DNA from: Nitrospira sp.
GTDB taxonomy: Bacteria > Nitrospirota > Nitrospiria > Nitrospirales > Nitrospiraceae
Reading direction: 5' to 3'
DNA: 64,000 nt
Assembly: GCA_029194675.1 (NCBI GenBank)
Contig: JARFXP010000001.1
Span: 1,418,501-1,482,500, forward strand
Position numbers and translations under genes: made by a program. Shown here piece after piece: positions 3,075 to 17,349 of the stretch. The notes below the pieces were generated by a model. It worked only from the letters and a program-made list of their open reading frames with translations. It did no database searches and was not told the origin of the DNA. The stretch's first letter is position 1. Each line of letters opens with the position of its first letter.

Positions 3075-3542
3075 ATGGCGGCACCCTACCGTGAACAATA
3101 CGACCGGATGAAGCGTTGGTACGACAGGTTTGCTGCGCTCGATCAGGGACGACCGCATAATGTGCCCTCTGACAATTACCTGGACGAGATCTATGCTTTC
3201 TTCATGAACTGCTATCACCTTAAGGATTGGATCAAGCATGATGCCACGGTTACCGTTGCAACCAAGCAGGTGGTCGAGGCGCACATCAACTCAAGCCGCG
3301 CGCTGAAGCTGTGCGCAGATATCTGTAACTCTCTAAAGCATCTACATCTCACGTCCAGCCGTAGCGGCGAAAACCCGGCTTTCGGCCGGAAGCAGTTCGG
3401 TCTTGCGTTGGGGACAGGACCGACCACCATCAATCTCAAATACGAGATCGACACGACTGGTGGAGCAATCGACGCGTTCCAATTGGCAACGGATTGCATC
3501 GAGGCTTGGAACACTTTCTTCAGCGCGAACAGACTCACATAG
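3075..3542 (+). CDS. Conserved hypothetical protein, 155 aa
   Basis: This is a cytosolic, signal-less protein. The N-terminal half is aromatic- and His-rich (FFMNCYHLKDWIKHD), followed by LCADICNSLKHL at about residues 87-98, then a more polar C-terminal half. I recall similar sequences annotated only as hypothetical; the alpha-helical CN-x-x-KH block is the recognisable signature, and I assign no function. The ATG at 3075 follows a GAGAGG ribosome site. The position just after an attC-like site suggests it arrived as a gene cassette. No second attC is visible after its stop. Confidence 0.65.
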   Translation: MAAPYREQYDRMKRWYDRFAALDQGRPHNVPSDNYLDEIYAFFMNCYHLKDWIKHDATVTVATKQVVEAHINSSRALKLCADICNSLKHLHLTSSRSGENPAFGRKQFGLALGTGPTTINLKYEIDTTGGAIDAFQLATDCIEAWNTFFSANRLT

Positions 3543-6269: not shown

Positions 6270-7208
6270 ATGGAAGCTGGAACGTTTGTTCTCATCGTGC
6301 TGGCCCTGATCGTGTTAATCGCACTCGCGAAAACTGCCATCGTCGTCCCTCAGCAGAATGCCTACGTCGTGGAACGTTTGGGGAAATACAGTTCCACGCT
6401 TGATGCGGGACTGCACATTCTTGTGCCCTTTGTCGACGCAATACGATATAGGCACGTGCTGAAGGAAAATGCCGTGGATATTCCCGAACAAGTGTGCATT
6501 ACGCGCGACAATGTCCAGGTCCACGTCGACGGAGTCCTGTACATGCGGGTTCTTAATCCTGAGCGTGCGTCTTATGGGATCAACGACTACCAGTTTGCGC
6601 TCACACAATTGGCCCAGACGTCGCTGCGAAGCGAGATCGGCAAGATCGAGCTGGACAAGACCTTTGAGGCCAGAACCACCATCAACGCCCAGATAGTCAA
6701 TGAATTAGACAAGGCGTCGGAACCCTGGGGTGTGAAAGTCCTTCGATACGAGATCAAGAACATCACTCCACCGAAAGATGTACTCAACGCAATGGAAAAA
6801 CAGATGCGAGCCGAACGGGAAAAACGCGCACTGATTCTGACGTCGGAAGGAGAGCGCGACGCCGCGATCAATCAGGCCGAAGGTGAAAAACAACAAGTGA
6901 TTAAGGCGTCTGAAGCCAAGAAACAGCAGCAGATCAACGAGGCGGAAGGAGCTGCGGCTGCCATACTCGCCATTGCGCAGGCCACCGCCGACGGAATCCG
7001 CAAGGTGGCAGAATCCGTCAAAGTTCCCGGAGGCCAAGAAGCCGTGCAACTTCGTGTCGCTGAGCAGTACATTACCAAGTTCGGCGAACTTGCAAAATCG
7101 AGCAACACGCTTGTGCTTCCGGCAAGTGTCTCCGATGTGGGATCGATGATCGCGCTGGCGATGAATGCCATGAGACAGCCCGGAATTTCACCTCCAGTGA
7201 AGTCATGA
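6270..7208 (+). CDS. SPFH/stomatin-family protein (paraslipin, QmcA-like)
   Basis: The protein is 312 aa from the ATG at 6270, 26 bases after the NfeD stop. It has one N-terminal membrane segment (TFVLIVLALIVLIALAKTA), the SPFH core beginning VVPQQNAYVVERLGKYSSTL, and a coiled coil rich in Glu, Ala and Lys (EGEKQQVIKASEAKKQQQIN at about 205-225). The C-terminal tail ends near GSMIALAMNAM. Length and architecture match paraslipins, which oligomerise at the inner membrane and guide proteases or organise membrane domains. It appears co-transcribed with the NfeD gene. Nothing in the sequence ties it to the neighbouring defence genes. Confidence 0.9.
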   Translation: MEAGTFVLIVLALIVLIALAKTAIVVPQQNAYVVERLGKYSSTLDAGLHILVPFVDAIRYRHVLKENAVDIPEQVCITRDNVQVHVDGVLYMRVLNPERASYGINDYQFALTQLAQTSLRSEIGKIELDKTFEARTTINAQIVNELDKASEPWGVKVLRYEIKNITPPKDVLNAMEKQMRAEREKRALILTSEGERDAAINQAEGEKQQVIKASEAKKQQQINEAEGAAAAILAIAQATADGIRKVAESVKVPGGQEAVQLRVAEQYITKFGELAKSSNTLVLPASVSDVGSMIALAMNAMRQPGISPPVKS

Positions 7209-7387
7209 TGATAACCCGCGTTATTCCGGATTCCGCAATTGTACGAGTTTGATGGAGAGTAGGCGACCAAATTCTCTTGGAGCTCTTTCCCTCCTAAGTT
7301 CTGGTGATTTTTCATGATGGAAGAGAGTATTCTTCAGCGGCAAGTTCTCCCAGTCAGATAGCTGATTCCCTCAGGATTTCTGAGTAG

Positions 7388-8968
7388 ATGAACATCCTCC
7401 TGACATTCACGGGGTTCAACGACCCCTACTCTTTAGGACTCGTAGGCGAAGAGGAGGTTCCTGGCCCAATCCTATCTCTCACCATGTCTAGTGAGTTCGA
7501 CCGTGTGATTCTTTTCTCCACGCCAAACACAGAAAAACACACCTCTGCCACCCAGTCCGCCCTGAAGAAAACGTGTCCCTCTTCGTTAGTGGAAACACAA
7601 CATCTCTCTCTGTCAGATCCCACTGACTACCATGGGATTTTGGGAGGACTACGACCACATCTCAAAAACATCATGGAATCATTCCCTGGAGCGAAATTTT
7701 TTATCTCGGTGGCATCCGGCACCCCACAAATGCATGCTTGTTGGCTCTTGCTCGCAGCCTCAGGTGAAATTCCCGCGCGAGTGCTTCAGGTACGGCCACG
7801 CAAATTCGTTACTACTGCCGCCCCTTTAGTATCTGAGATAGACTTCACATCTCGTGAATTCCCCATAGTACGTTCTCAAATGCCCTTGATGGGAACTGTC
7901 GTAGAGGGAAACCCGGTAGCCGCTGTGGTTGCACAACAACTAGGTATTGTTGGTGAACACCCAAGAACCCGCAAAGTTCTTGAAATCGCCGAGGCTCTAG
8001 CTCCTTCAGCCGCACCGGTTCTTATTCTGGGAGAAACGGGAACCGGGAAGGAATTGTTCGCCAGATTCGTGCATTTGCTCAGCGGTCGCCCCGCTGAACG
8101 ATTTGTTCCGGTAAATGGCGCAGCCCTCCCAAAAGAACTGGTGGAGAGCATCTTGTTTGGGCACAAAAAGGGATCGTTTACGGGAGCAACTGCCGATCAA
8201 ATTGGGAAGTTTGACCAAGCAAACGGCGGCACGCTGTTTCTCGATGAACTAGGAGAAATACCGCTACCCACGCAAGCCAAGCTACTTCGAGTTCTCCAGG
8301 ATGGTCAGGTTGAGCCGATTGGAGCGAAGCAGTCGCACAAAGTTGACGCGCGCATTGTGGCAGCAACAAATGCCGATGTCCTTAAGGCAATCCGAGAAGG
8401 CCAGTTCAGGGGAGACCTCTACTATCGTTTAAATGTCGGCGAGATTCGCTTGCCAGCTCTCCGGGAACGGCGATCCGATATTCCCAAGATCGCTCTGCAT
8501 ATCTTGGATCGAATCAATGCAGGACTGAAGAAACCAAAGCGACTCTCTCCCGACGCATTGTCCCGTCTACAAGGTCATTCTTGGCCTGGAAACGTTCGGG
8601 ACCTGGAGAATTGTCTGGAACGCTCGGCCCGACTTGCCAAGCAAGATGTCTTGGAGGCCGATGATCTGCTGATCTCTGAACCAATTGCCTACGCCGACCC
8701 TCTGTCAGGACTACCAGAGCCATCCGATGATTTTTCCATAGAAGAGTTTCTTGCCAGCGCGCGGAAACAGCTGATGCTCAAGGCCATAGACATGGCTGAA
8801 GGTAATCAGAGCGAGGCAGCACGTCTGCTGGGAGTGTCGCCTCAAGCTGTCCACAAGTTTCTCCGGGCCACACGCGTCGACCTTCAACCTGGTTTGAAAA
8901 GAACTTCAACTTCGGTTAAAGATAGCCGTCGAGCGAGGAAGACAAACGAAACTCGCAAGTCTCGGTGA
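7388..8968 (+). CDS. CARF-domain sigma-54 activator (RtcR-like enhancer-binding protein)
   Basis: This encodes 526 aa. Residues 1 to about 165 resemble a CARF sensor domain: [20 protein letters not shown] at the start, [12 protein letters not shown], and [20 protein letters not shown] with the GTxxM ligand-loop signature. Then comes a complete AAA+ sigma-54 activator domain: Walker [10 protein letters not shown] (about 216), the sigma-54 contact loop as GSFTGA instead of GAFTGA, Walker [13 protein letters not shown], and the arginine-finger region [11 protein letters not shown] Fis-type helix-turn-helix ([20 protein letters not shown]) ends the protein. RtcR itself uses this architecture to control RNA repair genes. 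Here a consensus sigma-54 promoter starts 30 bases after the stop and leads into a restriction-modification operon, so that operon is the inferred target. Confidence 0.9.
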
Positions 8969-8997
8969 AATAGAACTTTTCTACGGTTTAAATCATT

Positions 8998-9012
8998 TGG
9001 CACATCGCTTGC
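8998..9012 (+). promoter_or_regulatory. Sigma-54 (-24/-12) promoter of the SNase-hsd operon
   Basis: The sequence TGGCACATCGCTTGC matches the sigma-54 consensus TGGCAC-N5-TTGC exactly. The GG of the -24 element is at 8999-9000 and the GC of the -12 element at 9011-9012, with the required ten bases between. It lies 30 bases after the sigma-54 activator gene and about 50 bases before the SNase-like start codon. A short inverted repeat, TTCAA-N6-TTGAA (8883-8898), about 115 bases upstream, is a weak candidate for an activator site. Confidence 0.85.
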
Positions 9013-9064
9013 CGTTCCCCATAGGCAAAGAGTCTTCCACCGCCCATGAGAAAGGAGCTAAGCG

Positions 9065-9346
9065 ATGGCATTGTTCACAGTGAAGCAAATCATCGATGGC
9101 GATACGTTCGAGGTAAATCCCGGCTGGAAATGGCAGCAGCTCACGGGGGACAGAGTGCGGCCAACTGGCTATGACACGCCAGAAATGAACACACTGGCGG
9201 GTCAGATGGCCAAAGGCAGGCTGGCGAAACTAATTCTTGGGAAACAGATCGAATTGGGTTCGGCCTACAGAGTCGATCGAGACCGCCTGGTGTGTGACGT
9301 GTATTTCAACGGCAAGAAACTGGAGAACTACTTCTCCAGATATTAG
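9065..9346 (+). CDS. Small SNase-like (thermonuclease family) nuclease
   Basis: This encodes 93 aa, the size of a minimal SNase OB-fold. The family active-site residues are all present: the Asp pair in VKQIIDGDTFEV, the block RPTGYDTPE equivalent to Arg35, Asp40, Thr41 and Glu43 of staphylococcal nuclease, and Arg in DRDRLVCDVY equivalent to Arg87. No signal peptide is visible, so it should act in the cytoplasm on DNA or RNA. The ATG follows an AAAGGAG ribosome site. It is the first gene after the sigma-54 promoter and sits 15 bases before hsdR, so it is very likely translated from the same mRNA. Confidence 0.85.
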   Translation: MALFTVKQIIDGDTFEVNPGWKWQQLTGDRVRPTGYDTPEMNTLAGQMAKGRLAKLILGKQIELGSAYRVDRDRLVCDVYFNGKKLENYFSRY

Positions 9347-9361
9347 CAAGATGGGGCGTCT

Positions 9362-11632
9362 TTGAAGGATTTCTCGAAAGAAACTGATGCCCGCATTGTC
9401 ATTGATGACCTGCTGCGCCAAGCTGGGTGGGATCCGGCCGACAAATCTATGGTCCTCACCGAAGTACATACTTTGATGGTGGATGTGGCAACCTTTGCTG
9501 GAGAAGTCAGTGGATTGGCCGGAGCTTCACTTGCGAGCGATCAGAATCTTGCTGGCCGTGCAGACTATGTACTGTTGGGTCAGAATGGGCGTCCACTTGC
9601 CGTCATCGAGGCGAAGCGTAGAGCGACTGAGCCATACACGGCTAAGCAGCAAGTCCTCCCATACGCAAAGCGGTTGGATGCTCCGTTCATTTTCCTGACC
9701 AATGGGGAGCTTATCTACTTTTGGGACTACAGAAATGACGATGCCCGAATCATCAATTCATTTTATTCCCGCCGGGATCTCGAACGCTTGGTTGAAATAC
9801 GTTCGACTCGGAAGGCGTTAGCCACCGTTGCCATTCCCGAGTACTACCTCAGACAAGGGGAACAGCGAAAAGTACGCCCGTACCAGAAGGAAGCGATGCA
9901 GGCCTTCGACCAAGCGGTTGAGCTGGGGAAGCGCCGCTTCCTGGTAGAGCTTCCTACGGGAACTGGCAAGACAGATCTCATCTGCCTCTATCTTCGGCGG
10001 CTCATCAAGGCTGGTCGTACCGAACGAATCCTCTTTCTTGTAGACCGTGAACAGTTAGCCAAACAAGCGCTTGAAGCGTTGCAAGACATCCTAAATCAAC
10101 ACGGGAGCTATTGGCTCAAACCAGGCATGGATCGGCAGGAGCAGCAGATTACGGTCTGTCTCCTCCAGACGATGATCGGTCGGTATGAGGACTTCACAAG
10201 CGGGTACTTTGACGTTGTGGTCGCCGACGAATGTCATCGCTCGATCTATGGAGCCTGGCAAACGGCGCTGACGCACTTTGATGCGCTGCATATCGGATTG
10301 ACGGCAACCCCCGCGACATACATCGAACGGAACACCTTTCAGTTCTATCAATGCAAGGAGGACCAGCCTGATTTTTCCTATTCCATTCAGAAGGCCTTTG
10401 AAGAAGGCTTCCTAGTCCCTTATCGGTTCGCGACCGGGATTACTGTCCTTCTTGCTGAGGGCGCAGACTTACACGACGAGCACTATGACCCAGCGGAGTT
10501 TGAGCGCAAGTGGACGAATGAAGATACCAATAGAAAAATGATGCAGGAGTTCGATCGTCTGGCTTGGCAGAGCTACAAAGACCTAGCGCCTGGTCAGAAG
10601 ATTGGTCCCGGCAAGACGATTGTGTTTGCCATTACCAAACATCACGCGGCTCGGCTTGCTTATTATCTCAACGAGTTACATCCGGAATGCAAAGGCCGGT
10701 ATGCCGAGATCATTACCAGTGATGTGCCGAACGCCGATGGTCTGATCCGCAAGTTCAAACGCGAAGACTATCCCCAAATTGCCGTCAGCGTCGGCATGTT
10801 GGACACAGGGTTTGATTGCCGAGAAGTCCTCCATTTGGTGATGTGTCGGCGGGTGAGAAGCCCAATTCTGTACCAGCAGATGCGCGGACGAGGGACAAGG
10901 ACTGCACCCCATATGAACAAGACAAAGTTTGTGATCTATGACTTTTTCGGCAATCACGACTATTTCAACGACAGCGACACTGACATCTTCACCGGAACCG
11001 GTGGAGGCCATGCCGCTTCAGGCCAAAGAAAGTTGCCCAAGCCGTCCCGCGACCTCATTGAGCTTGGCCTAGAGGATGAATGGCTTCAGGCTGTTACATA
11101 CGTCGAAGTGGGGCCAGAAGGTGAGCGAGTCGATAAACGGGACTATGTCACGAATTGGGAAAGAACTATTCGCTCGAGCGTTCCAGATGATGGGACGCTG
11201 CAGAAGATTCGAGACGGAAAGACCTTGACAAGTGATGAGGAATCGGCCCTCGCGTCGAAGCTGAACAATCCCAAGTTCTATTTCAATGAGGACAATTTGC
11301 GACGGGCATATCGGCGGCCTGGCGGAAGCCTGATCGACTTTATTAAGGCCGCACTGGGAAGCATAAAGATTAAGAGTCGTGATGAAGAGCTCACCGAAAA
11401 TTTCCATGCTTGGCTTGTCACGAAATCGCTCACACCCCAGCAAGCACAATATCTCTCATTGCTCAAGAATAGAGGGATCGCGAGTGGAAAAATCGAACTC
11501 GATGACTTGTTCCGACCCCCACTCTCCATTCTGAATGCAGCCGGCCTTGGTGTCGAACTCTTTGGCGAGCAGGGATTGAAAGACATCCTTCAAGACCTCA
11601 ACACATCTGTCTTTCGAAGAAAGGCCGGGTAA
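9362..11632 (+). CDS. hsdR: Type I restriction endonuclease, HsdR subunit
   Basis: This encodes 756 aa from a TTG start preceded by GGGG. The N-terminal nuclease domain has the PD-(D/E)xK pattern (GRADYVLLGQNGRPLAVIEA followed by Lys-Arg, about residues 66-86). The superfamily 2 translocase motifs follow: Walker A LPTGTGKTDL (about 197), the box VVADECHRS, LTATP, and motif VI QQMRGRGTR. The C-terminal part fits the EcoEI_R-like helical domain. The subunit cleaves DNA after ATP-driven translocation when bound to HsdM2S. Only nine bases separate it from hsdM. No frameshift or missing motif is seen, so it looks functional. Confidence 0.95.
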   Translation: MKDFSKETDARIVIDDLLRQAGWDPADKSMVLTEVHTLMVDVATFAGEVSGLAGASLASDQNLAGRADYVLLGQNGRPLAVIEAKRRATEPYTAKQQVLPYAKRLDAPFIFLTNGELIYFWDYRNDDARIINSFYSRRDLERLVEIRSTRKALATVAIPEYYLRQGEQRKVRPYQKEAMQAFDQAVELGKRRFLVELPTGTGKTDLICLYLRRLIKAGRTERILFLVDREQLAKQALEALQDILNQHGSYWLKPGMDRQEQQITVCLLQTMIGRYEDFTSGYFDVVVADECHRSIYGAWQTALTHFDALHIGLTATPATYIERNTFQFYQCKEDQPDFSYSIQKAFEEGFLVPYRFATGITVLLAEGADLHDEHYDPAEFERKWTNEDTNRKMMQEFDRLAWQSYKDLAPGQKIGPGKTIVFAITKHHAARLAYYLNELHPECKGRYAEIITSDVPNADGLIRKFKREDYPQIAVSVGMLDTGFDCREVLHLVMCRRVRSPILYQQMRGRGTRTAPHMNKTKFVIYDFFGNHDYFNDSDTDIFTGTGGGHAASGQRKLPKPSRDLIELGLEDEWLQAVTYVEVGPEGERVDKRDYVTNWERTIRSSVPDDGTLQKIRDGKTLTSDEESALASKLNNPKFYFNEDNLRRAYRRPGGSLIDFIKAALGSIKIKSRDEELTENFHAWLVTKSLTPQQAQYLSLLKNRGIASGKIELDDLFRPPLSILNAAGLGVELFGEQGLKDILQDLNTSVFRRKAG

Positions 11633-11641
11633 GCCTCAAGT

Positions 11642-13285
11642 ATGAATCAGGATCTTCGGCGAAAACTCGATCGCATTACGGACATTCTCTGGGCAGGAGG
11701 TGTGACCAATCCGGTCACCTACATCGAGCAGATTTCCTATCTCATCTACCTCAAACTGCTGGACGAAGAAGAAACTGATCGTGAATTAAGAGCAAGACTG
11801 ATAAGTGGGAAAGGAAACGGGAACGACAAGCTGCTATTCCCCAAGCAGTCAGAGCGCTATCGCTGGTCAAAGTGGCGGTTCAAGAGCGGCACAGACCTGC
11901 GCGACTTTCTCCGCGATGAGGTCTTTCCGTACATGTCTTCGCTCGTCAAGGAAGAACCACAGATCGCTGAGTACTTCCGTGATGCGGTCTTAGAAATCGT
12001 CGATCCTAATGTGCTGAAACATGTAATGGACGAACTTGATGGTATCGACTTCCGCAAGCTCGGCACCGATGTAAAAGGCGACATTTTTGAATATCTCCTC
12101 ACCCATCTCGGGCAGTCCGCGCTGAACGGTCAGTTTCGAACGCCACGTCAAATTCGCGCCATGATGACTGAGATGGTCGATCCTGATTTGGGTGACACTA
12201 TCTTCGATCCAGCGTGTGGCACGGGCGGCTTTCTGATCGACGCTGTAGAGTACATCTTGGCCAAGTATTCGACGGAGCCGAAGCAGGTACCGATTTATGG
12301 CGAAGAATGGCTTGAAAAAGCTTCGGATGAACAGAAACGCTTGCCCACGCTGCAACAATACAAGAAAGGAGCCGGCGAGAAGGTCCCTGATTGGGAATTG
12401 CTAGAACGTTCCATCTTTGGCTTCGACGTCAGTCGCCAGATGATGCGCATCGCCATGATGAACCTGGTGTTGCACGGCATCCGAAAAGCTCATGTGAAGC
12501 GCGCCAATGCTCTTTCCGAAATGGGAGGATTGACCGAAGAGGATCTTCGTCGGAAATATAAAGTGATTCTCTCAAATCCTCCATTCTCGGGAGTCCTTCC
12601 TCAGGAATCAGTCCGCAAAGATTTGCCGACGAACTCAAAAAAGAGTGAGCTGCTCTTTCTTGGGGTGATGATGGAGGCGCTAGCGCCAGGAGGCCGATGC
12701 GCCGTTGTAGTCCCCGAAGGGCTACTGTTCGGTTCAACAAGCGCTCACGTCGAGCTTCGGCGGAAATTAGTCGAAGATTACGAACTGCTTGCCGTCGTGT
12801 CGTTGCCGGCCGGTGTCTTTAAGCCGTATGCAGGGGTGAAGACTGGTGTGGTGGTCTTCAGACGGCCGACTGATGCAAAGGCAAAGAAAACCGAGAAGAT
12901 TTGGTTTTACGACATACGTGCTGATGGATATGATCCAGACAAGATCACCGGAGGGGGGCGCCCGGAATCTCCGGAGCGGAACGACATTCCTGATCTACTC
13001 ACCCAGTGGAAAAACTATAAAAAATCAAGTTTCAAGAAAGCTCCCGGTGTTGAAGCGGAGACGCTCCTCGATCCTGGCAGCGAAGAGCCCCGCTGTTGGT
13101 GGGCGCCATTCAAGACTATTGCGGAGAACGACTACAACCTCGCCGCTGGACGGTACAAGCCGCAGCTGGCCGAGAAGCCCCCGGATGAAGACCCTACCCA
13201 CCTTATCCGGCAAATGATTACCATTGAGCGAGACATCACTGATGGTCTAGAGAAGTTACTGAAGGACGTGGAGTCTGCAGGATGA
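11642..13285 (+). CDS. hsdM: Type I DNA methyltransferase, HsdM subunit
   Basis: This encodes 547 aa. The N-terminal helical HsdM_N domain begins LRRKLDRITDILWAGGVTNP and includes the family's TYIEQISYLIYLKLLD. The N6-adenine methyltransferase core has motif I DPACGTGGFLID (about 190-201) and catalytic motif IV NPPF (in ILSNPPFSG, about 313). It transfers a methyl group from SAM to adenine in the sequence chosen by HsdS. Its stop overlaps the hsdS start by four bases (ATGA), indicating translational coupling. Length and motifs are complete. Confidence 0.95.
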   Translation: MNQDLRRKLDRITDILWAGGVTNPVTYIEQISYLIYLKLLDEEETDRELRARLISGKGNGNDKLLFPKQSERYRWSKWRFKSGTDLRDFLRDEVFPYMSSLVKEEPQIAEYFRDAVLEIVDPNVLKHVMDELDGIDFRKLGTDVKGDIFEYLLTHLGQSALNGQFRTPRQIRAMMTEMVDPDLGDTIFDPACGTGGFLIDAVEYILAKYSTEPKQVPIYGEEWLEKASDEQKRLPTLQQYKKGAGEKVPDWELLERSIFGFDVSRQMMRIAMMNLVLHGIRKAHVKRANALSEMGGLTEEDLRRKYKVILSNPPFSGVLPQESVRKDLPTNSKKSELLFLGVMMEALAPGGRCAVVVPEGLLFGSTSAHVELRRKLVEDYELLAVVSLPAGVFKPYAGVKTGVVVFRRPTDAKAKKTEKIWFYDIRADGYDPDKITGGGRPESPERNDIPDLLTQWKNYKKSSFKKAPGVEAETLLDPGSEEPRCWWAPFKTIAENDYNLAAGRYKPQLAEKPPDEDPTHLIRQMITIERDITDGLEKLLKDVESAG

Positions 13286-14535
13286 AATGGTCTGAAGTTG
13301 AGATTGGACAGCTATGCCTCACTATTGATCACGCTGATCCTCGCGACAATCCGGGCAAGCTTTTTGAGTACATCGATATTTCGTCCGTCGACAAGGATTT
13401 CAAAGTAATAAGTCAGACTCAAACAATACTTGGTTCCGAAGCACCGAGCCGGGCTAGGAAGATTATTTGCAAAGGCGATGTCTTAGTTTCAACGGTACGC
13501 CCAAACCTGAATACGGTGGCGGTTGTCCCTGAAAGCCTTGATCAGCAGATAGCCTCGACAGGATTTTGCGTTTTGAGACCTAATGCCAAATACGTTGTCG
13601 GAAAGTACCTCTTCTATCGTACCCTGACCCCTGACTTCATCAGCTACTTAACAGCAAGAATGCGAGGTGCAAACTATCCTGCAGTGACAGACGCTATAGT
13701 TCGACAAGCTTCGATCCCATGGCCTCCCATTCAAGAACAGCATCGCATCGTGGAGATCCTCGACCAAGCCGACGCTATTCGAAGGAAGCGGGCCGAGGCG
13801 GACGCCAAAGCTGATCGCATCCTCCCCACCCTCTTCTACAAAATGTTCGGCGATCCACTAACGAACTCGCGAGGGTGGGATATGCATGAGCTTGGTGACC
13901 TTTGTTCGGTCATAACCAGCGGATCTAGAGGCTGGGCGATATACGCCGGTAATGGAAATTCTTTGTTCGTTCGGACTCAAGACGTGCTTGATGGAGAAAT
14001 CTCTTCAACTCTGCTACCGATTGATCCTCCTTCTGGAGCTGAAGCGAATAGGACCAGACTGCAGGATGGTGATGTTGTTATCACAATAACAGGAGTGGTG
14101 GGAAAAGCCGCTGTCTATAAGGATTGCGGGCGACAAGCATACGTTAGTCAGCACGTTGCACTTTTAAGAACAAAATCATCGTTGGAGCCCGAATACCTTA
14201 CTGCCCTTGCAAATCTTCCCGCTGGAGGGACCTCGATCCTAGCTCGTCTCCAGTATGGACAGATCAAACCAGGTCTTGGATTTCGAGAGCTTCGTGGTGT
14301 GCGAATTCCGCTACCTTCGATTGAAGTTCAGCGCAAATTCGCTTCTATCATCAACAAAATACGCGCCACGAAACAGAGCACAAAGACCTTACGGGAACGA
14401 TTAGAGAGGCTTTGGAGTGGCTTACTTCACCGGGCCTTCTCTGGCGAACTCACCGCCAAATGGCGCGAGGCTCATATGAAAGGATTATTAGCTGAGATGG
14501 AAGAGCAAACGAGAGCTTTGAGCAAAGCATGCTAA
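13282..14535 (+). CDS. hsdS: Type I specificity subunit HsdS
   Basis: This encodes 417 aa with the classic two-repeat HsdS plan. A first target-recognition domain covers about residues 1-150, then a central conserved helix (QEQHRIVEILDQADAIRRKR, about 153-172) ending LPTLFYKMFGDP. A second target-recognition domain starts GWDMHELGDLCSVITSGSRG, and the C-terminal helix ends RLWSGLLHRAFSGELTAKW. It sets the DNA sequence recognised by the methylase and nuclease. The start overlaps hsdM, and its last codons overlap the start of the ATPase gene. There are no nearby inverted repeats or recombinase to suggest phase-variable shuffling. Confidence 0.93.
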   Translation: MKWSEVEIGQLCLTIDHADPRDNPGKLFEYIDISSVDKDFKVISQTQTILGSEAPSRARKIICKGDVLVSTVRPNLNTVAVVPESLDQQIASTGFCVLRPNAKYVVGKYLFYRTLTPDFISYLTARMRGANYPAVTDAIVRQASIPWPPIQEQHRIVEILDQADAIRRKRAEADAKADRILPTLFYKMFGDPLTNSRGWDMHELGDLCSVITSGSRGWAIYAGNGNSLFVRTQDVLDGEISSTLLPIDPPSGAEANRTRLQDGDVVITITGVVGKAAVYKDCGRQAYVSQHVALLRTKSSLEPEYLTALANLPAGGTSILARLQYGQIKPGLGFRELRGVRIPLPSIEVQRKFASIINKIRATKQSTKTLRERLERLWSGLLHRAFSGELTAKWREAHMKGLLAEMEEQTRALSKAC

Positions 14536-16241
14536 CTGGTCTTCGCCTCGGTAACTTCAAAGCCTTTGCCGACACTCAATACATTCCCATCCGTCCACTA
14601 ACTCTCATCTTCGGCGCGAACAGCGCCGGCAAGTCGAGCGTGATCCATAGTCTCCTACTGGCTTGCCATGCTTCGGAAACAGGGGAATTGGATATTCACC
14701 GTACGCGAGTCGGCGGAGAATCCGTCGATCTAGGCGGATTTCGGCAATACATTCATCGCAGGAACTACGGCCGCAGCGTTGAGTATTCTACTGAGATCGA
14801 TATTAGTCCGCTTCGAGGAAGAATTGTCGAAATCCTCGCTCCGGCTCGACGTGTGGCAGTGACCGTGACGATTGGGATTGAACAGGATGACATGGGGGTC
14901 CCGAAGGTGGGCGTGATCCCCCAAGTCCAAACCTATGAAATACTGGTCGATGGAGCAAGCCTACTCCGTATGAGTCATCGTCCAGACGGGACGCTTCAGC
15001 TTGATCGGTTGGCGCAAGACCATCCCGTTCTGCGCATTCTCATCAAAGCCATCCTAGAAACGACCACAACAGCCGAAAACATTGGGCCTGCTGATCAAGA
15101 GGGCATAAACCGAGCCATTTCCGAATTAGTCCCTCACATTCTGACGCGCGTCGATGGGTTGCTGCCACGTGGGCTACTGCGGTTTGGTGTGCGTGAGTAT
15201 GCCGGACAAGGACAAATCGAAATAAAACAGTTCCTCCAACGTGAGCTATTTGAGAAGTCTCCTTTAGACCTTCCGACCGCATCAGAAGAATCAATGCTCT
15301 TTCCCATCAGCCAAGGACGGAGGGAAGAGGACCTTGCAAACGCGATCCGATTCTTCCTGCCTCGTACGATCGATGAGCTAATTCGTGGGCTGCGGGATGT
15401 GATCGGAAATGAGCTTGGAAGACTACAGTATCTGGGTCCTCTTCGCTCGTACCCGCCCAGACACATCGCGTTTGCCCAACACCACGATCAGAATTGGTTT
15501 GCTGGCGGAGGATACGCCTGGGATGTCGTTCGAAAGAATAGGCAGGTTCGGGCGGCTGTGAATGCATGGCTGAATTCTCCTGAGCGCTTGCAGACTCCCT
15601 ACTTGCTGGCCATTCGTGAACTTGTTGGAGCAGAGGATCTCCAAACCCCGCTGACCGACATGTTGCAGCAAGCGGCTGAGCTCGTGAGCGAGGAAGGTGT
15701 TATCCCCATATTCGATGATCCTGAATCTGCCGCAACTGCTTTCGTGAAGAAAGTCAGCTCAGGCGAGATCGACAAGATCAATGAATTGATCCTGATGGAT
15801 AACCGTACGAGGACGCAGGTGAGCCATCGCGACGTTGGTATCGGGATCAGCCAGGTTCTCCCCGTGCTAGTCACGGCTTATGCTTCGAGGAACAAAATCC
15901 TCGCGATGGAGCAGCCAGAGATCCACCTGCACCCCGCGCTCCAGGCCGAGCTCGGGGATGTCTTTATAGAATCTGCTCTTGGTGAACGAAAGAACACAAT
16001 GATCCTCGAAACCCATAGCGAACATCTGATGCTCCGTATTCTTCGGCGTATCAGAGAGACTACTGAAAATGAATTGCCGAGCAATGCCATTCCTATCAAA
16101 CCCGATGATGTGGCAGTCCTATTTATCGATGCGACGAGTAGTGGCTCACGGGTAATCGAAATTCCAATCCTCCCAGAAGGGGAATTTGCCAAGCAATGGC
16201 CCCACGGTTTCTTTGACGATCGCGCAAAGGAGCTGTTCTGA
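14529..16241 (+). CDS. SMC/RecF-like AAA ATPase (AAA_15/DUF3696-type)
   Basis: This encodes 570 aa. It starts LTGLRLGNFKAF with Walker A FGANSAGKSSVIHSLL (about 30-45). The distal half has a signature-like region (VSHRDVGIGISQVLPVLVTA), Walker B ILAMEQPEIHLHPALQAEL, and the H-loop segment LETHSEHLMLRILRRI. This matches the single-chain ABC-type ATPases found in many anti-phage systems, where they pair with a nuclease or other effector. Its start lies inside the end of hsdS, and its stop is three bases before the next gene. It is therefore tied to both the restriction operon and the PLD-like gene. The effector partnership is inferred. Confidence 0.85.
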   Translation: MLTGLRLGNFKAFADTQYIPIRPLTLIFGANSAGKSSVIHSLLLACHASETGELDIHRTRVGGESVDLGGFRQYIHRRNYGRSVEYSTEIDISPLRGRIVEILAPARRVAVTVTIGIEQDDMGVPKVGVIPQVQTYEILVDGASLLRMSHRPDGTLQLDRLAQDHPVLRILIKAILETTTTAENIGPADQEGINRAISELVPHILTRVDGLLPRGLLRFGVREYAGQGQIEIKQFLQRELFEKSPLDLPTASEESMLFPISQGRREEDLANAIRFFLPRTIDELIRGLRDVIGNELGRLQYLGPLRSYPPRHIAFAQHHDQNWFAGGGYAWDVVRKNRQVRAAVNAWLNSPERLQTPYLLAIRELVGAEDLQTPLTDMLQQAAELVSEEGVIPIFDDPESAATAFVKKVSSGEIDKINELILMDNRTRTQVSHRDVGIGISQVLPVLVTAYASRNKILAMEQPEIHLHPALQAELGDVFIESALGERKNTMILETHSEHLMLRILRRIRETTENELPSNAIPIKPDDVAVLFIDATSSGSRVIEIPILPEGEFAKQWPHGFFDDRAKELF

Positions 16242-16244
16242 GCT

Positions 16245-17147
16245 GTGATCTACGAGTACGCCGTCGAACCAGAACTCTTGAGCAACTGGACTAACTTTCG
16301 ATATTTCTCAGGACAATTTGGCGTTTCGCGAGGCCGACTCATCTCTCGTTATCCCAAACGCTGGGAGAGGATGGTGTATGAGTCCTTGACTGCGTGTCCG
16401 CCTGTAGAGAAAGCAAAGATTGTGGAAAGGCTTTCACGCCTTAAAGACAGGATGATCACTCGCCAAAATACATGGGACAAGCATAAGGAATGGTTGCTAA
16501 ATGCAGAAACAGAACATGGGCTGCGACCTTTTCGGGCAATCTTGGCGCATCACAACCCACGTTCGCAACCATTTGTCCTTGAGGGCAATGATGTTGAAGA
16601 GAATCATCCGCTCTGGAAAGTTGAGGTGTCTCAACCTGTTGCCCGCACACCACAGCAAATCTGTGCGTGCGTCGGTCCACTATTAAGAATATCCAAACAG
16701 ATTCTTTTTGTAGACCCCTATTTTCGTCCCAGCCAACACAATTATCGCATGCTCTTTGCTGAACTTTTTGAGCTGTTTCTACAGGATAGAAGCTTCGGCC
16801 TGGCTTCTGTGGGAATTTTTGTATCAGACAAGATCAGTTGTACCGGACAACACTTCTTTGACGAATGCCAGAAATATATTCCGGCCCTCATTCCAGTCGG
16901 AATGCAAGTCACGATCGGATTGTGGAGTCAACGAGTGGATGGCGAGGAAATCCATAATCGGTATGTTTTAACCGATAGGGGTGGCGTGAAGTTCGGCAAC
17001 AGTCTCCGTGAAGGAGATACTGGCACATCCGATGACGTTAATTTATTGAGTGACGAACAGCATAAACTGCGGCTTGCTCAATATGCGGGTCCAAACCATG
17101 CGTTCGACCAAGTGAGCACCATTACCATCATAGGTACAAAGCGATAA
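16245..17147 (+). CDS. PLD-like protein, putative effector partner of the ATPase
   Basis: This encodes 300 aa from a GTG three bases after the ATPase stop. The C-terminal half resembles phospholipase D-like nucleases: strand ILFVDPYFRPS at about residues 151-161, and the motif HNRYVLTD followed by GGVKFGNSL. The latter is an HxRxxxxD variant of the HxKxxxxD motif, with Arg in place of Lys. The N-terminal half is helical and unrecognised. There is one clear motif copy, so a dimer would be needed for a full active site. PLD-like nuclease or phosphodiesterase activity is inferred; loss of catalysis through the Arg variant is possible. Confidence 0.6.
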   Translation: MIYEYAVEPELLSNWTNFRYFSGQFGVSRGRLISRYPKRWERMVYESLTACPPVEKAKIVERLSRLKDRMITRQNTWDKHKEWLLNAETEHGLRPFRAILAHHNPRSQPFVLEGNDVEENHPLWKVEVSQPVARTPQQICACVGPLLRISKQILFVDPYFRPSQHNYRMLFAELFELFLQDRSFGLASVGIFVSDKISCTGQHFFDECQKYIPALIPVGMQVTIGLWSQRVDGEEIHNRYVLTDRGGVKFGNSLREGDTGTSDDVNLLSDEQHKLRLAQYAGPNHAFDQVSTITIIGTKR

Positions 17148-17349
17148 ACGAGTTCGATTTGAAAGGTAGTTATCCCCTGAGGCGGCAGGCTCACCGTATG
17201 CACCTCAGTGAACAAGTTAATAGCCTTCCCCTGGCCTCGGCCATTTACATAGCGAGCATCCATGAGCCGCTCAGGAAACGAAGCATTTGCCCAGCCGACA
17301 GATTGCGCCTGTGTTTGACACGCCGGACTACCTCGCCTAGAATCGCGTC

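Follow-up and report, generated by a model that had tools for sequence, protein, structure and literature searches.

The 15-base element TGGCACATCGCTTGC, which lies between an activator gene and a restriction operon in Nitrospira sp., is very probably a real sigma-54 promoter. It would drive an operon of an SNase-like gene, hsdR-hsdM-hsdS and an AAA/PLD-like pair, and would be switched by the adjacent CARF-AAA+-HTH activator. Our reading of the window, by which we mean the whole stretch of 64,000 nucleotides that was analyzed, draws on the promoter and its conservation, a pair of palindromes at fixed spacing, the domains of the activator, the presence of rpoN, the operon and the island in which all of these lie (Table 1).

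Table 1. Features of the locus, with positions in the window
Feature	Position	Strand	Details
Defence island, ~10 kb	7209-17349		between SPFH gene (ends 7208) and gmhA (starts 17350)
Activator gene, 526 aa, RtcR_PspF2 family	7388-8968	+	CARF, AAA+ and HTH domain matches
Candidate upstream activator site 1, palindrome TTCAACCTGGTTTGAA	8883-8898		13/14 fixed positions of TTYAACC-N2-GGTTRAA; offset -107 as in relatives
Candidate upstream activator site 2, palindrome TTCAACTTCGGTTAAA	8905-8920		13/14 fixed positions; offset -85 conserved
Probable sigma-54 promoter TGGCACATCGCTTGC	8998-9012	+	-24 box TGGCAC 8998-9003; -12 box TTGC 9009-9012
Ribosome binding site AAAGGAG	9051-9057	+	direct reading; 8 nt ahead of ATG 9065
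First operon gene, 93 aa, SNase-like by motif	9065-9346	+	DGDT, R..G.D.PE, DRGRL
hsdR, type I restriction subunit, EcoAI/EcoEI-like	9362-11632	+	PF04313, PF04851, PF08463
hsdM, adenine methyltransferase	11642-13285	+	PF02384 8.6e-51, PF12161; PADLOC MTase_I 1.4e-138
hsdS, specificity subunit	13282-14535	+	PF01420, two stretches
AAA ATPase with DUF3696 tail, accessory defence gene	14529-16241	+	PF13175, PF13304, PF12476
AAA ATPase partner, 300 aa	16245-17147	+	C-terminal half probably PLD-like, HNRYVLTD motif

The promoter, the activator and the operon

The first-pass annotation had described a perfect match to TGGCAC-N5-TTGC with GG-N10-GC spacing, and re-reading the letters bore this out: there are no mismatches, and it is the sole zero-mismatch match in the window. 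Taken alone the 15-mer is weak evidence for a promoter. The 5.2-Mb genome contains 11 perfect matches compared to 17 for a reversed control pattern, and the 68 window matches at up to 2 mismatches, against 62 expected, are at chance level. What raises the box above chance is its position, after the activator and before the operon, together with its conservation in relatives. It starts 29 bp past the activator stop codon and ends 53 bp ahead of the first ATG of the operon, and from the position of the box transcription is predicted to start at about 9023-9025, 11-13 nt past the -12 GC. The same type of ribosome binding site precedes the ATG in relatives. A search of the coding strand from 7150 to 9400, which includes the gap between the two genes, found no sigma-70-like promoter. 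The sigma factor itself is encoded in the Nitrospira sp. genome (rpoN, PF04552 E 2.6e-58) and was detected in 29 of 30 host genomes tested, the exception being the MAG that hosts locus L102, which gave no match.

A sigma-54 promoter implies an ATP-driven activator, and the gene that the first-pass annotation implied but missed turns out to be the adjacent one upstream, with its likely binding sites visible. The protein has a CARF domain at about aa 1-160, a sigma-54 AAA+ domain at aa 187-353, a lid and a Fis-type HTH at about aa 460-490, and its translation carries a GSFTGA loop of the GAFTGA type in the AAA+ domain. Its Sigma54_activat AAA+ domain, GAFTGA-type loop and HTH are those of a bacterial enhancer-binding protein. 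Pfam matches are PF00158 (E 2.5e-64), PF06956 RtcR (5.9e-10), PF22208 Csm6 CARF (3.8e-7) and PF02954, HTH_8 (5e-6), while the PADLOC profile PDLC01995 RtcR_PspF2 CARF_AAA_HTH matches nearly full length (E 3.3e-132, aa 2-495 of 526). We rejected an assignment to RtcR proper, as the protein scores 323.8 bits with NF038308 against a cut-off of 650 and is followed by the SNase-like and HsdRMS genes, with no rtcB or rtcA. The CARF domain, modelled with a pLDDT of 88.7, has its best PDB match in the cA6-type Csm6 structure 6tug (profile E 7.3e-11, Foldseek E 1.2e-9). Its SGTPQMH loop is nearly invariant among 35 relatives, with G111, T112, P113 and H116 strictly so. From sequence it is a CARF domain of the Csm6 type with an SGTxxM ligand loop, and it is predicted to bind a ligand.

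That the promoter stands before a type I restriction operon, as had been claimed, is supported by its position and conservation, with the correction that the first gene of the operon is the 93-aa SNase-like ORF and only then come hsdR, hsdM and hsdS. The 93-aa protein is conserved in about 30 loci, with D11, G12, D13, T14, R32, E40, D71 and R74 invariant. It has no Pfam or PDB profile match to SNase or any other family, so that its assignment is drawn from motif resemblance. The hsdR product scores below the cut-off of NF046051. Genes hsdR, hsdM and hsdS occur together, as in a type I system, and restriction and methylation are the activities that their products would have. The last gene of the operon has no family match in Pfam and PADLOC profile searches. 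A low-confidence model of its product (pLDDT 61) gives weak matches to phospholipase D folds and an H-x-R motif is conserved in relatives, which makes a PLD-like C-terminal half probable. All genes of the operon overlap or are 3-15 bp apart, hsdM starting 9 bp past hsdR, and this leaves no intergenic room for a promoter of hsdM's own.

In most congeners examined the SPFH gene and gmhA are adjacent, about 60 bp apart, and there is no island there; of 396 genomes from the phylum, just 7 contain the activator's CARF domain. Less than 2 kb from the island lies a second CARF protein, a CARF-HEPN ribonuclease (TIGR02710; 4412-5668, minus strand), whose gene adjoins gmhA in several congeners without SPFH there. 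It was considered as a member of the system and rejected, being resident in the genus beside gmhA and absent from the other loci. Further away, the plus strand at 2225-2968 encodes a protein with a RES domain (PF08808), which may be a RES/Xre-type toxin; next to it is a 155-aa ORF (3075-3542) with no assignment.

Conservation of the control region and its cargo

Searches with the full-length activator were swamped by other enhancer-binding proteins and the CARF domain alone was used as query. Scanning 84,980 species genomes with CARF peptide motifs gave 75 loci, with the promoter ignored in the selection; conservation of the promoter is thus not an ascertainment effect. The test set consisted of those of the 75 loci, plus the window, in which the activator was complete and followed by 200 nt or more of sequence (n=63). 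Boxes were scored out of 10, with GG and GC obligatory, and searched for up to 200 nt past the activator stop. A box of 9-10/10 was found in 39 of the 63 loci compared to 0.24 expected from dinucleotide shuffles, and in 25 of 47 representatives at 80% identity compared to 0.18 expected. The opposite strand, mid-gene sequence and the region upstream of the activator gene all gave 0, and one reversed-sequence control reached 9. A logo of 31 representatives reads TGGCAY-N5-TTGC, with GG and GC invariant, information close to zero at most positions of the N5, and mostly low information in the flanks. In relatives most boxes lie 95-119 bp past the activator stop; the window ORF is longer, and counted from the equivalent codon its box is at about the same distance.

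A check proposed in the first-pass annotation, whether relatives with the same gene order conserve both boxes, had a favorable outcome. Among 42 loci with SNase-like, HsdR or HsdM genes downstream, a box scoring 8/10 or more is present within 200 nt in 38, and GG-N10-GC precedes the first cargo gene in 41. The box of L069 is farther downstream, immediately ahead of hsdR, those of L054 and L096 are weaker with GG-N10-GC retained, and the single exception, L103, has lost the GC of the -12 box. No recognizable box was found near the activator in the distant relatives L078, L090, L101, L108, L114, L115 and L116. The arrangement of activator, box and sites is found in many bacterial phyla. The activator tree intermingles phyla, which is compatible with horizontal transfer, a reading to be taken with caution as most of the loci come from MAGs; none of the phages or viral contigs searched contained a relative, and the plasmid search returned weak matches only.

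The palindromes were spotted by reading aligned regions of the relatives and have the consensus TTCAACC-N2-GGTTGAA. Their centres lie 107 and 85 bp ahead of the -24 box, within the range of about 80-150 bp upstream seen for activator sites in sigma-54 systems, and the two are usually 21-22 bp apart, or two helical turns (22 bp start to start in the window). Two palindromes are present in 39 of the 63 loci compared to 0.9 expected from shuffles. The window has just these 2 sites (0.15 expected) and no second such pair occurs in the 5.2-Mb genome, with 0 for the reversed control, which suggests that the pair is probably a dedicated local switch. Both are contained in the 3'-terminal part of the activator ORF, and the activator's stop codon is part of the first palindrome in many relatives. 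The spacer between palindromes and promoter has an AT content of 58% compared to 47% in the gene and is the higher of the two in 44 of 46 cases. In the Verrucomicrobiota relatives the palindromes and the region of the recognition helix both differ, which would be compatible with direct binding. The palindromes are likely the binding sites of the adjacent activator.

Type I R-M is the cargo of most loci and takes one of two forms, with a short hsdR and the SNase or with a long hsdR, and the HsdS proteins downstream of the box are diverse (mostly 28-47% identity). The promoter, usually with the palindromes, is also kept ahead of non-standard cargo in L094, L079, L087 and L055. This cargo is Hma without R-M in L094 and a dynamin-PLD plus R-M in L087. 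In L079 it is a VWA protein with a CARF-PD-DEXK nuclease (Card1-like, L079:6364-8118) whose N-terminal part resembles the CARF domain of the activator (PADLOC 6.8e-15, hhalign probability 91%), which suggests that activator and effector nuclease may share one signal, possibly a common ligand. In L055 an AAA (DUF3696) and PLD-like pair (~9.8-12.4 kb) directly follows activator, palindromes and box, without R-M, and the AAA-PLD pair is probably a stand-alone defence module. L050 and L048 have a 9/10 box farther downstream, just ahead of the first cargo gene; in L050 this is 800 nt past the activator stop and shortly ahead of a Fic-family gene. Another 9/10 box lies 990 nt past the activator stop in L111, shortly ahead of a radical-SAM gene.

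Proposed mechanism and alternative explanations

We infer from these elements how the switch could work, including the binding of the palindromes, the inducibility of the operon, the identity of the signal and the consequence for self-methylation. Dimers of the activator would bind the two palindromes, and a ligand, or the loss of an inhibitor, would act at the Csm6-like CARF domain to release the AAA+ domain. The GSFTGA loops would then remodel the RNA polymerase-sigma-54 complex across the AT-rich, loopable spacer and turn the operon on. When there is no signal the polymerase would be held as a closed complex, leaving the operon silent or nearly so. As this combination of a signal-sensing activator, its candidate sites and a sigma-54 promoter recurs across phyla, the defence would probably await an infection signal instead of being permanently active. 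The Nitrospira sp. genome contained no Cas10 palm domain and no SMODS (CD-NTase) domain in our searches, so a local source of cyclic oligoadenylate is not evident; among 30 host genomes, 14 have a palm-domain match over the cut-off. Candidates for the signal are a CARF ligand of nucleotide type or the ends of RNA, and not cyclic oligoadenylate made by a Cas10 of the cell's own. The RtcR model, with RNA ends and RtcAB binding, offers an alternative by analogy (PMC9650030, PMC11090510).

Other readings of the locus have to be weighed against this one. The chance-level counts in genome and window would fit a box that matches by accident, with an ordinary sigma-70 promoter driving the operon. We consider this highly improbable given that the box is conserved at this position across phyla while its N5 drifts, and given the sigma-54 activator next door, the paired palindromes and the lack of a sigma-70-like site in the gap. 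Even less credible is the idea that the conserved bipartite sequence is the type I enzyme's own recognition site, used for methylation or autoregulation and no promoter at all. Type I sites do have two parts with a fixed spacer, and an hsdS gene lies downstream. However, the box is constant while HsdS is not, it is retained with cargo free of R-M (the AAA-PLD pair of L055 and the Hma of L094), and what stays constant in it is the sigma-54 consensus, at a fixed distance from the palindromes.

Two further readings accept the promoter and deserve more weight, though we find both unlikely. The promoter could be a booster only, with the R-M operon constitutive at a useful basal level. It would be dangerous to induce HsdR and HsdM together while the cell's DNA is unmethylated, and with hsdM so close behind hsdR the cell may require a basal degree of modification. 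Against this stand the absence of a sigma-70-like promoter from the coding strand searched and the established silence of sigma-54 closed complexes without their activator. The strict dependence on the activator that the first-pass annotation had asserted is what we infer as well, allowing for a possible weak basal promoter. Somewhat less probable is that products of the operon itself control the activator by protein titration, in place of a small ligand. A precedent exists in RtcR, whose CARF domain is bound by RtcA and RtcB, both of them needed for activation (PMC9650030), but here the cargo varies while the SGTPQMH loop hardly does, which a common small ligand would fit better. Returning to the sigma-54 switch, the activator, two-palindrome enhancer and promoter might form a portable ligand-gated cassette that crosses phyla and renders entire defence modules inducible. 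With hsdR and hsdM sharing a silent promoter, induction may then yield the restriction enzyme while the cell's own DNA is unmethylated, and R-M would serve as infection-triggered suicide or a last resort and not as standing immunity. We put this forward as speculation, more likely wrong than right.

Relation to known systems and significance

Among the closest known systems is RtcR/rtcBA of E. coli and Salmonella, which likewise has a CARF-AAA+-HTH activator, a sigma-54 promoter and an upstream activation sequence (PMC9650030). Here, unlike there, the cargo is R-M, activator and operon are in tandem and the CARF domain is more like that of Csm6. With Csm6/Csx1 of type III CRISPR systems the activator shares the CARF fold and the SGTPQM loop, its best matches being cA6-binding Csm6 proteins. 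The output of those proteins is RNA cleavage, whereas that of the activator would be transcription, in a genome without Cas10. The association of the proteins is already known from Makarova et al. 2014, extended by Bell et al. 2024. In its treatment of RtcR-like CARF-AAA-HTH proteins, the former notes that those without a link to Rtc frequently accompany R-M systems and predicts them as likely sigma-54 activators of downstream genes (PMC4012209). The RtcR_PspF2 group of Makarova and PADLOC, as described there, is the same protein family and type of neighbourhood as ours. That treatment argues from domain architecture and neighbourhood, while the present work adds promoter, palindromes, conservation and cargo reuse at the level of sequence. 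Bell et al. describe an RtcR-like gene at the 5' end of CoCoNuT/type I R-M superoperons including HsdRMS, and propose UAS binding and 2',3'-cyclic-phosphate RNA ends as the signal (PMC11090510). These are long operons, in Pseudomonas among others, which we liken by description to our locus, where no CoCoNuT genes occur. A -24/-12 site, TGGCACAGTGCCAGCA, was also predicted in silico ahead of the Xylella XF2724 type I R-M operon; the part of that paper concerned with it gives a single prediction in a whole-genome list and mentions no activator or conservation (PMC3224663).

In the open-access literature searched, sigma-54 promoters of R-M genes appear only in the 2014 and 2024 predictions and the in silico Xylella list, and no prior report was found of the promoter, the two-site enhancer, their conservation or the reuse with other cargo. 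The locus is a real and well supported member of a predicted class, and what is apparently new is the promoter, the cis code of two palindromes, the deep conservation and the portability to other defence cargo.

Restriction-modification is usually regarded as constitutive immunity. The conserved sigma-54 switch and CARF sensor imply a widespread group of type I systems that would be induced when needed, and how such cells protect self-DNA then becomes a question. The palindromes and the -24/-12 box could also provide a simple reporter for what CARF domains outside of CRISPR systems sense, a question that the 2014 work left open, and this short cis code can be used to locate further defence modules under identical control.
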